In this document: positions 6,201 to 57,779 of the stretch, piece after piece
Position numbering within the stretch: the first letter of the stretch is position 1
Layout: every line of letters starts with the position of its first letter
Origin: Norana najaformis
Lineage: Eukaryota; Annelida; Clitellata; Crassiclitellata; Hormogastridae
DNA length: 64,000 bases
Assembly: GCA_964023275.1 (NCBI GenBank)
Contig: OZ029918.1
Span: 38,152,977 to 38,216,976 of the forward strand
Direction of reading: 5' to 3'
Made by a program: the position numbers and the translations under genes
The notes under the pieces: model-generated
The model's input: the letters and a program-made list of their open reading frames with translations, nothing else
Told to the model about the DNA's origin: nothing
The model's database searches: none

Positions 6201-8416
6201 TTCCTGTCGGTTGCAGACGATTTTCCGTTTCTACCTCGTGCTGTCACAATTGAGAAAGAAAAAAAGTTTACAGACTCCTACGTCCTGGGAGAAGAGATTG
6301 GAAAGTAAGGGAAATTCTTCACTCTGTGTTGGAAGAGTCATGACTTTCGTAGTCGTAAGCTCGAGATTTCTACAGCGCCGAACGAAACTGGACTCGCCGG
6401 AACCAGCTTATTCACAGGAGCTCAGTCAAAACAAAATCGATAGGCAGGAAGGGTTCGATTTTAGGTTATGATCCAAGAGTCAGACTGGCAGGCAGTCAGT
6501 CAGATAGCTACAGTGGATAATGTTTGGAATTGAAAGGAAAGTGAGATAAGGGAAAGAGGAGTTTGATTAAGTTGTGATTTTAAACTTGTTTTGAGTTACC
6601 CAATTTTGGTGGAAAGATACAAGAAAGAAGAAGGAGCTTCAGGAGTAGGTTACTAGACAGCCTATTCCAAAAAGATGGGCAGACTGCAGCAAAAAACTTG
6701 TGCTGGACTTTGGAAGTTTGGGCCAGTGGAGCAACTAGCTAGTATTTGATGGTCGTATTTGTTCACTCGTGGTGGTATTTATGTGCTCATGGTGATACTT
6801 GCTTGCTCAGTGTGGTATTTGTATGGTTCTGATGGCATTTGCGAATTATGGACGGAAATGGGAGACGAGGAAGACCTAATAGGGAGTGGACAGATGATAT
6901 AAGGGATTGGTGTAAGCAAGACTTGCACGCCTTGATAAGAACAGCACAAGATCGGGAACTGTGGAGACAAGTGACAATGCATGCAGTGGACACCTACGGG
7001 CTCTCGGCCCATGGATCATGATGATGATGATGATGATGGCATTTGCACCCCCATGCTGCTATTTGATCCTTTTGGTGACATTTCTTCGTAGGGGTAAGTT
7101 TGGAAGCGTCTACAAATGCACAGAGAAGGCATCTGACCAACTGTTTGCGGCAAAGTTCATCCGGGTCAAGGCCGGTCTGCGTGATGAGTGTCGACAGGAA
7201 ATCGGAATAATGAACGAACTTCACCATCCAAAACTTCTCCTCCTGTGGGATGCTTTCGAATCTCCCAGAGAGATCATCCTAGTCATGGAACAGTAAGTCT
7301 AGGGCTCGCTTACTCAGGATTTGATTTATGCATGGCAGGGCAAGACAGGGGCAGGGCAGGGCAGTAGCCATTGTTAGAGTAGCAATCCTCCTAATAATAA
7401 AGTGTCATATCTCTTAATACGCTTGGTGTTCAAGTGTGACTCTGTATACGTTACAAAGTTTTTCAGTAACACCAATGCTAGTTCAATAACACCAATAAAC
7501 TACCACTGGTGTTATTAAATTAGCATTCATGTTAATAAACTAGCATTGATGTTACTAAACTAGCACTGGTGTTATTAAACTAGCATTGGTGTTATTAAAC
7601 CAGCATTGGTGTTATTAACTAGCATTGGTGTCACTAAATTAGCATCAGTGTTATTAAACTAGCATTGGTGTTACTAAACTAGCACTTATTTTACAGCGTC
7701 AGTGGAGGAGAACTAATGGAGCGAATCATCAACGACGACTATGTTCTTACGGAACGCGAGTGTATCCACTTCATGCGTCAGATTTGCGACGGAGTCCAGT
7801 ACATGCACTCGAACAACATCCTCCACCTGGACCTGAAGCCAGAGAACATTCTCTGCATTACTCCAAACAGCAACGAGATAAAGATCATCGACTTTGGACT
7901 GGCGCGCAAGTTCGACCCAAAGAAGGACTTCAAGATCATGTTCGGAACGGCGGAGTTCGTGGCCCCCGAGGTGATCAACTACGACTCGATTAACTACACG
8001 ACTGACATGTGGAGTGTCGGCGTCATCTGCTACGTCCTGTTGTCGGGGTTGTCACCGTTTGTTGGCAACGACGACAAGGAGACGCTTGTCAACGTGATGA
8101 AGGCGCAGTTTGACTTTGACGACGAGGAGTTTGACGAGATCACGGATGACGCAAAGGATTTCATTAGCAAGCTGCTTGTGAAAGACCCAAGGTCAGTAAG
8201 AAAGACTAATAATTAATAATTAATTAATTATATGTTGTTACCTTGTTTTCGTTATCTGTGTAGTGTAAAAGGCTGGCGTGGTGTTTGGTTAGCTGCATTG
8301 GTTAAAGCGTACATCAAGGCCTGACACGCACTGAGGATCAGTGAGGCTGTTGGTTGGTTGGTCGATGGTTCACTTGTTACAGTTAGACTGGAGAGGTAGG
8401 TCGGTGCTGCAATGCT

Positions 8417-24157: not shown

Positions 24158-24932
24158 AAAGGTAGGTAGGTAGAAAGGTAGGTGGGTAGGTGGGTAGGTG
24201 GGTAGGTGGGTAGGTGGGCAGGTGGGTAGGTCGGTAGGTCGGTAGGTGGGTAGGTGGGTAGGTGGGTAGGTTGGTAGGTTGGTAGGTGGGTAGGTGGGTA
24301 GGTGGGTAGGTGGGTAGGTGGGTAGGTGGGTAGGAGGGTAGGTGGGTAGGTGGGTAGGTGGGTAGGTGGGTAGGTGGGTAGGTGGGTAGGTGGGTAGGTG
24401 GGTAGGTGGGTAGGTCGGTAGGTCGGTAGGTCGGTAGGTGGGTAGGTGGGTAGGTGGGTAGGTCGGTAGGTCGGTAGGTCGGTAGGTGGGTAGGTGGGTA
24501 GGTTGGTAGGTCGGTAGGTCGGTAGGTCGGTAGGTGGGTAGGTGGGTAGGTGGGTAGGTGGGTAGGTGGGTAGGTGGGTAGGTGGGTAGGTGGGTAGGTG
24601 GGTAGGTGGGTAGGTGGGTAGGTGGGTAGGTGGGTAGGTGGGTAGGTGGGTAGGTGGGTAGGTGGGTAGGTGGGTAGGTGGGTAGGTCGGTAGGTCGGTA
24701 GGTGGGTAGGTGGGTAGGTCGGTAGGTGGGTAGGTCGGTAGGTGGGTAGGTAGGTAGGTGGGTAGGTAGGTAGGTAGGTAGGTAGGTAGGTAGGTAGGTA
24801 GGTAGGTACGTACGTACGTAGGCAGGTAGGTAGGTAGGTAGGTAGGTAGGTAGGTAGGTAGGTAGGTAGGTAGGTAGGTAGGTAGGTAGGTAGGTAGGTA
24901 GGTAGGTAGGTAGGTAGGTAGGTAGGTAGGTA
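24158..24932 (+). repeat. 770-bp (GGTA)/(GGTG)n array
   Basis: Uninterrupted tetranucleotide DNA, mostly alternating GGTAGGTG with GGTC and GGTT variants and pure GGTA at the right end. The 333-codon minus-strand frame through it (PTYLPTYL...) is a repeat artefact. Confidence 0.97.
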
Positions 24933-26932: not shown

Positions 26933-26997
<65 letters not shown>

Positions 26998-27022
26998 GTT
27001 GTTGTTGTTGTTGTTGTTGTTG
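26810..27022 (+). repeat. (ATT)n/(GTT)n microsatellite after a LINE/SINE 3' end
   Basis: Follows TACAGGTATAGCGCCCTTCT...CGGCCTCGACC. The long poly-Leu and poly-Asn frames here are artefacts. Confidence 0.92.
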
Positions 27023-27026
27023 CATC

Positions 27027-27602
27027 TTGTGGCTGCCACGGCTATTGACCTCGACGCCGACCTCTTCTCGTCTTGTTTACCGACATCTATCGATGAAATA
27101 CCTTGGGTCGATAATGAATCCTAAAGGAGAATGGAAACATGATGTTAAGAACAGGATTAACGTAGCGTGGCAAAAATGGAAAGACCTATCGAGCGTATTA
27201 TGCGATGTCAAAATGCCAGTTCAAGTCAAAGGAAAGGTGTACAAAACAATAATAAGACCAGTGATGATATATGGAGCAGAAGCCTGGACATTGACGAAAG
27301 AGGAGGAAAAGCTGCTGGAGAGAACGGAAATGAGAATGATGCGATGGATACTTGGAATCTCACTGAAAGACAAGAAAAGGAATGAGTATATCAGACAGAA
27401 ATTGGGAGTGGCATGTATATCTGAGAAGGTACGAGAAGCCAGGTTGAGATGGTATGGTCATGTGATGAGGAGAGAGGAGGAAAACTGCATTAAAAGAATT
27501 ATGACAGCAGAGGTTTACGGACGCCGCAGTCGTGGACGAAAAAAGAAGAGATGGGGAGACATGATTCAGCAAGACCTAAAGCTTCTCAGGCTGAAGAAAT
27601 AA
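27027..27602 (+). mobile_element. 5'-truncated RTE-like LINE, reverse transcriptase C-terminal domain
   Basis: Open frame of about 190 codons with MKYLGSIMN, YKTIIRPVMIYGAEAWTLTK, RMMRWILGISLKDKKRNEYI and RLRWYGHVMRR. These are diagnostic of the region after the RT catalytic core of RTE-like non-LTR elements. The endonuclease and RT core are absent, the usual result of 5' truncation. The frame is intact from the (GTT)n junction to the stop, so the insertion is fairly young. Confidence 0.88.
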
Positions 27603-35600: not shown

Positions 35601-36230
35601 CATGTACGCCACAGTTTTTATATGAAATACGGAAATTATTACTTCAGAACAACGTATCTAAACAAATTTTATGCAGCGAGTGTAATTTATTAAAACATAT
35701 ATCTCTAGAGTGGATTCAAGTTCTTTAAAGGAACATAACTATTTGACATAATAATTATATAGTTCGACACCATAATTAATAAAGTCTTTGTATCATGGCC
35801 TTAGAAAGGTTTCAAAATTTGGACGGCTCAATAAAATGTTACAGCGCGCTAGCCTTAATAAGCCATTGAGGTGTTTCGAATTACACTGCTTAGAAAGCGT
35901 AATTGTTACATAGGGATTCGAATTTCATATGTAAGATGGGGCATGGGCGTTGGAACCCATATTCGTGGGGCAGCCAAGTTGAAAAGTGGGTTGGCAAAAA
36001 TGGGATTTTGTCGTCCACTTGTTCAGTCCAAATTAATAAAAACAACTTTCGGAGTTGGTCGAAACCATACGGTCGCTACAGAAAAACGAACACATTTCCA
36101 TTTACATTTACTTGGGAAATATTGTCTGGTTTTGTAACTCAGCGGCTGAGAGTTTCTCTGGCCTTCACACAAGCGCTTCTCGCTAGAGGAGCTGATTCTA
36201 CAGCGTAAATAGAGCTGCTAATACACGCTG

Positions 36231-36540
36231 ACGACGGCTGACGTCATCTCTGGCAATGGACGATAGAGCTATAAATAGAACGCCTGACGTCATATCTGAC
36301 CAATGGACGATACAGCTATAAATAGAACGCCTGACGTCACCTCTGGCCAAAGGACGATAGAGCTATAAATACAACGCCTGACATAATCTCTGGCCAATGG
36401 GCGATATAGCTATAAATAGAATGCCTGACGTCACCTCTGGCCAAAGGACGATAGAGCTATAAATAGAACGCCTGACATCATCTCTGGCCAATGGGCGATA
36501 TAGCTATAAATAGAATCGTCGCAAGACGTCATCTGTGGCC
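36231..36540 (+). repeat. 47-bp minisatellite with CRE-, CCAAT- and TATA-like motifs
   Basis: Six to seven units with period 46-47 bp. TGACGTCA or a variant starts at 36239, 36285, 36332, 36379, 36426 and 36473. Each is followed about 15 bp later by GGCCAATGG or GGCCAAAGG, and about 17 bp later by TATAAATA. CCAAT and CCAAA units alternate, giving a 94-bp dimer. It ends 37 bp beyond the stop of the receptor gene on the other strand. Confidence 0.92.
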
Positions 36541-36576
36541 AACAGAGGCTCGCCAAGCTGAAGACGACAACATCAG

Positions 36577-57779
<21,203 letters not shown>

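Follow-up and report, generated by a model that had tools for sequence, protein, structure and literature searches.

The window (the whole 64-kb stretch of DNA analysed here, from the annelid Norana najaformis) contains the 3' end of a receptor gene on the minus strand and, just past its stop codon, a tandem array of a 47-bp unit. As judged from its predicted exons, the neighbouring gene is a class B GPCR closest to the calcitonin and CGRP receptors, an assignment that rests on four exon pieces. The minus-strand open reading frame (ORF) at 38129-38425 matches Pfam 7tm_2 (PF00002) with an E value of 2.4e-5 (24.1 bits, with a cutoff of 20.6). The joined exon pieces show the CGRP type 1 receptor as their best PDB match (4.5e-32), followed by calcitonin receptors, and the best receptor alignment crosses the junction between the TM7 exon and the last exon. 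The parts of the receptor gene, in their order of transcription, are the following:

45952..46095, minus strand: TM3-TM4 exon of the GPCR, with approximate ends
38198..38333, minus strand: TM6 exon of the GPCR, with ends set by eye; the Pfam 7tm_2 match lies in ORF 38129-38425
37536..37577, minus strand: TM7 exon of the GPCR, 42 bp, with AG before and GTAAGG after it
36577..36774, minus strand: last exon of the class B GPCR, containing helix 8 and the C-tail (65 codons and the stop), with an AG acceptor before it and in phase
35686..35691, minus strand: nearest AATAAA past the receptor stop, which, if used, places the array within the 3' UTR

The stop codon of the receptor is the TAG at 36577-36579 on the minus strand, and the right end of the array at 36540 lies 37 bp from it, in agreement with the initial annotation, which had placed the array end 37 bp past the stop of a class B GPCR. 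Since the next minus-strand AATAAA is found at 35691, the array would begin ∼35 nt into the 3' UTR of the receptor and end at ∼340 nt. The array is thus probably contained in this 3' UTR, with TATAAATA oriented antisense to the receptor. The probable 3' UTR position is absent from the earlier description of the locus.

Tandem Repeats Finder (TRF) describes the array at 36234-36542 with a period of 47 bp, 6.5 copies, and 85% matches, which bears out the six to seven repeats of a 47-bp unit noticed at first. With the unit boundaries set by cutting at the CRE, six units of 46 to 47 bp span 36239-36515, followed by a decayed seventh copy. The first unit comprises 46 bp and the next four comprise 47 bp each, while the sixth reaches the edge of the array. 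The units and their putative remnants are the following:

36208..36233, plus strand: possible decayed half-unit at the left edge; a weak match, equalled by 30 of 500 shuffles of 35900-36238
36239..36284, plus strand: U1, 46 bp, with an exact CRE, a CCAAT box broken by a one-base deletion (GGCAATGG), and TATAAATA / CTATAAATAG
36285..36331, plus strand: U2, with an exact CRE, CCAAT (GACCAATGG), and TATAAATA; the sole unit with all three intact
36332..36378, plus strand: U3, with an exact CRE, CCAAA, and TATAAATA; the MEF2 match is broken (...TAC)
36379..36425, plus strand: U4, with TGACATAA as the CRE (two changes), CCAAT, and TATAAATA / CTATAAATAG
36426..36472, plus strand: U5, with an exact CRE, CCAAA, and TATAAATA / CTATAAATAG
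36473..36515, plus strand: U6, with TGACATCA as the CRE, CCAAT, and TATAAATA / CTATAAATAG
36522..36543, plus strand: degenerate seventh copy with AGACGTCA and CCAAC, lacking the TATA element; nhmmer match at 36525-36543 with an E value of 0.025

A profile built from five units recovers all six units and the weak seventh copy (E value of 0.025) and shows no further match below an E value of 3 in the 64-kb window. The head-to-tail arrangement of the copies and the unit length, within the range of ∼10 to 100 bp, identify the array as a minisatellite. Identity is 46/47 positions between U3 and U5 and 43/47 columns between U4 and U6, which indicates that the 94-bp dimer consists of a pair of the U3-U4 type present twice. 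The alternation of CCAAT and CCAAA units and the 94-bp dimer described previously are found in U3 to U6 but not in U1 and U2, where the CCAAT box of U1 is broken and U2 contains CCAAT.

The three motifs are kept to different degrees in the units. The exact CRE TGACGTCA is found in U1, U2, U3, and U5 (4/6) and the exact CCAAT in U2, U4, and U6 (3/6), while TATAAATA alone is intact in 6/6 units. CRE, CCAAT, and TATAAATA occur together in one of the six units, U2; an intact CCAAT is missing from the other three units with an exact CRE, as is an exact CRE from U4 and U6. The initial annotation described every unit as a mini core promoter, which is overstated in view of these counts. Its description of the CRE as exact or changed by one base in each unit applies to most of the array but not to U4, whose TGACATAA has two changes. 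CG-to-CA changes are present in two of the six CREs. The varying columns amount to 5 of 26 in the motifs and 9 of 21 in the spacers (Fisher p = 0.11), in a comparison of six related copies where three of the nine varying spacer columns vary only through the position of U6 at the array edge. The longest invariant run comprises 11 columns over AGCTATAAATA, with a permutation p value of 0.20. The motifs are not significantly better conserved than the spacers inside the array, though the difference points the expected way and six copies are a weak test.

The MEF2 consensus is CTA(A/T)4TAG, and the TATA element of the array sits inside CTATAAATAG, a perfect MEF2 site in five of the six units. This MEF2 reading of the "TATA" element is a further feature absent from the initial annotation. 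The 64-kb window contains five strict CTAWWWWTAG sites, all within the array, and ∼76 kb of flanking DNA contains two further ones. A combination of CRE, NF-Y, and MEF2 elements is found in the proximal promoter of c-jun. By its exact fit to the MEF2 consensus in five units, which account for all strict sites of the window, the array could be regarded as a muscle- or activity-type enhancer with CRE, NF-Y, and MEF2 rather than TATA elements, acting on the receptor or on a neighbor such as the kinase gene at 7 to 8 kb. This is highly improbable: the five sites are tandem duplicates that count as one event, and TATA and MEF2 elements are inseparable by sequence.

In the sense orientation of the receptor, the six copies of TATAAATA read UAUUUAUA, each with UAUUUAU, an AU-rich heptamer with a role in mRNA stability. 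The retention of TATAAATA in all units, alone among the three motifs, and the minus-strand AATAAA at 35691, which puts the array in the predicted 3' UTR, are consistent with a tunable stability element of the receptor mRNA. However, the 3' end of the receptor is itself predicted from AATAAA, and TATTTAT is common in the AT-rich window, with 65 matches on both strands. Folding of the sense strand is slightly stronger than that of shuffled sequences (z of -2.0, with 4 of 100 as good), which is in favor of such an mRNA element but only marginally above chance; the antisense strand shows a z of -1.5, with 10 of 100 as good. Overall, the mRNA element is very unlikely. These z values are also too weak for a structured RNA, which was rejected as a candidate. 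A repeat of like position, the much studied VNTR in the 3' UTR of the human gene DAT1/SLC6A3, is described in PMC2883569. A coding repeat was rejected as well, since 47 is not divisible by three and the three ORFs searched that adjoin the array or overlap it (35903-36205 and 36476-36784 on the plus strand and 36605-36877 on the minus strand) gave no Pfam match; the search covered ten ORFs in all but not three shorter ones that cross the array on the minus strand.

The array appears to be private to its locus. The initial annotation called for a genome search for the 47-bp unit; this search, performed with a 27-bp unit core and up to three mismatches, shows six matches in the 608-Mb genome, all of them in the array, and none for the control, at a threshold that more diverged copies could escape. 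As a DNA query, the 310-bp array gives one match in its own genome in a search that skips very common words. The array thus behaves as a single-locus repeat, neither dispersed nor satellite, and has been seen only at this spot in the genome. A dispersed element or a captured promoter was rejected in view of the lack of a further genomic copy in the searches with the 310-bp query and the 27-bp core (up to three mismatches). As these searches show no second copy in the genome, a comparison of motifs and spacers across loci has no second locus to draw on.

Compared to other arrays in its surroundings, the array shows an unusual packing of motifs. TRF yields 217 rows in 140 kb, 99 of them with a period of at least 15 bp, which reduce to 61 non-overlapping arrays. 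Of 24 motifs, at least three are found in one of the 61 arrays, the present one, which holds four (two overlapping); 57 arrays hold none, two hold one, and one holds two. The motif lists, with 24 strings for the arrays and 29 strings in the window count, were drawn up without reference to a database. Among 200,000 simulated 47-mers with the dinucleotide make-up of the window, none contains three of the elements CRE, NF-Y, strict MEF2, and TATA.

This packing is rare locally, yet at genome scale it is not clearly above chance. The ordered pattern TGACGTCA-N0-25-CCAAT-N5-35-TATAAA is found 17 times in 608 Mb, compared to 12 times for a reversed-pattern control. U2 is the sole unit of the array among the matches; by visual inspection, four or five of the 17 seem to belong to a single dispersed family that has no relation to the array. 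Tandem rows with a period of 38 to 200 bp cover 4.8% of the 140 kb sampled, a value to which the present array and long-period rows of simple repeats contribute. Multiplying 12 by 0.048 gives an expectation of ∼0.6 promoter-like arrays by chance genome-wide, depending on the gap ranges chosen, so that roughly one array of such promoter-like units is expected somewhere in the genome.

CRE-bearing repeats are likewise not special to this locus, since CRE pairs 32 to 62 bp apart occur at 374 places in the genome, compared to 108 for a control palindrome, and TGACGTCA itself is common, with 13 occurrences in 140 kb (four in the array) versus 1 to 4 for seven other 8-mer palindromes. CRE arrays as a selected class were rejected on the grounds that TGACGTCA itself is commoner than these seven palindromes and that the array L034, by eye, does not spare the CRE. 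L034 is a CRE-bearing array at 1500-1760, by eye a decaying ∼25-bp repeat with five exact TGACGTCA elements ∼50 bp apart. Another group, consisting by eye of dispersed ∼50-bp CRE...ACCAATCAC...ATATTATAAA modules, is found at L016, L017, L019, L020, and L031 (at about base 1501), the matches in L017 and L031 being on the reverse complement and L016 being the most divergent member. Some of these modules have more copies of TGACGTCA close by. The dispersed family may represent a mobile-element or multigene promoter of this genome.

The window contains several other features. An 8-bp repeat, GGTAGGTG, forms ∼96 copies with a 95% match at 24161-24932 (TRF). At 40242-40759, TRF shows about four copies of a 134-bp unit, whose sequence by eye also recurs singly across the window, which indicates a dispersed repeat turned into a tandem array. 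A plus-strand ORF at 26988-27599 resembles by eye the C-terminal region of a reverse transcriptase of the LINE type. The plus strand at 7683-8213 contains a protein kinase exon (Pfam Pkinase, 9.3e-47) with Ig-like exons nearby, as seen by eye; the predicted gene resembles those for myosin light chain kinase or titin-type kinases.

The DNA to the right of the array, at 36546-36960, carries five CRE half-sites, against an expectation of 0.22 based on the remainder of the window. The excess has a Poisson probability of 3.8e-6, compared to 0.0007 by dinucleotide shuffling and 0.003 by a uniform scan, all in a post hoc test. Three of the half-sites are located in the last coding exon, where, for example, ATG ACG TCA encodes M T S; one overlaps the branch-point-like sequence CTGAC before the acceptor, and one is intronic. 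An origin of these half-sites as decayed array units was rejected, with 36550-36800 aligning to the unit no better than shuffled sequences do (173 of 500 as good). The C-terminal coding exon of the receptor (36577-36774, minus strand) is a possible dual-use regulatory exon, or the half-sites accumulated there by chance.

These observations bear on the proposal that the array acts as an antisense promoter or enhancer. Here, CREB/ATF, NF-Y, and either TBP or MEF2 would bind the array and start plus-strand transcripts near 36535, ∼30 bp after the last TATAAATA, and these transcripts would cross the last exon of the receptor, leading to a cAMP-dependent feedback on the receptor. The geometry suggested in the initial annotation is correct, as a TATA-driven start would run antisense into the receptor, whose last exon ends at 36577. 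The motif packing among the local arrays (1/61), the invariance of TATAAATA, and the CRE half-sites reaching into the non-repeated flank speak in favor of this function, as does the type of the receptor. Receptors of the calcitonin type can signal via a pathway that activates CREB. According to PMC7200681, mussel receptors of this calcitonin/CGRP-like type raised cAMP in HEK 293 cells with human or salmon calcitonin, though the mussel peptides did not raise cAMP via those receptors. In contrast, all three motifs are united in only one of the six units, and four of the five flank half-sites have other readings (three coding and one branch-point-like). Moreover, no strict plus-strand splice donor is found at 36 to 50 kb, and the sole looser site at 36.5 to 40 kb is located at 39267. 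The longest ORF with an ATG start at 36536-37300 comprises 77 amino acids and runs through a CA-rich microsatellite. A new plus-strand gene starting from the array was rejected for this lack of a strict donor and of an ATG ORF longer than 77 amino acids. For the proposal of an antisense promoter or enhancer, the geometry is right, but positive support for a regulatory function goes no further than the motif matches and the post hoc excess in the flank. It is opposed by the single complete unit, the p value of 0.11, the lack of further genomic copies in the searches, and the 17 versus 12 ordered trios, and we consider it unlikely. Its more specific form, a cAMP-responsive antisense promoter through which receptor signalling raises antisense RNA against the receptor's own last exon with a strength set by the repeat number, is quite unlikely.

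The explanation favored here, with a probability of roughly two in three, is a minisatellite specific to this locus, lying in what is probably the 3' UTR of a calcitonin-receptor-like gene, with a promoter-like appearance inherited from one founding sequence. The plain minisatellite, put forward in the initial annotation as a fallback, is the better-supported reading. In the proposed course of events, a 47-bp stretch of the receptor 3' UTR, which by chance held good matches to CRE, CCAAT, and TATA/MEF2 elements, would have been tandemly duplicated by slippage or unequal exchange. A later duplication of 94 bp would have given rise to U3-U4 and U5-U6, and the CRE and CCAAT matches would since have decayed in several copies. 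The array would be transcribed as part of the 3' UTR and have no dedicated function, though it may still passively bind bZIP or MEF2-type factors. The local packing, the flank half-sites, the invariance of TATAAATA, the MEF2 sites, the fold, and the CREB-linked type of the receptor count against this minisatellite explanation. If it applies, the locus is a cautionary case, in which a repeat-rich genome yields about one promoter-like array by chance.

No minisatellite of CRE-CCAAT-TATA units was found in the titles and abstract openings returned by searches of open-access literature. Among known systems, the promoter of the human glycoprotein alpha-subunit gene contains a duplicated CRE. Such tandem-CRE promoters share with the array the repetition of the exact TGACGTCA at short spacing, but they are located upstream of their genes and the array is located downstream of a stop codon. 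Other minisatellites of the same genome also consist of mutated tandem copies in a repeat-rich region, and some of them bear CREs, as does L034; compared to the other 60 local arrays, the present one has more of the 24 motifs per unit. The DAT1 (SLC6A3) VNTR, described as human-specific (PMC2883569), is likewise repeated in tandem within the 3' UTR of a gene for a membrane protein, a position that is probable for the array. The two differ in gene, unit, and motifs, and polymorphism is known for DAT1, in contrast to the one assembly considered here. PMC5438627 describes MNS16A as a VNTR downstream of exon 16 of human TERT, with a 23-bp unit, GATA-1 sites, and measured reporter activity. Like the array, MNS16A is a minisatellite with repeated transcription factor motifs past the last exon of a gene and in a possible antisense promoter orientation. 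The array differs by its 47-bp unit and its CRE, CCAAT, and TATA/MEF2 elements. If the array does fire, it would provide an antisense feedback, tuned by the repeat, on a hormone receptor in a nonmammalian animal, comparable to MNS16A of human TERT.
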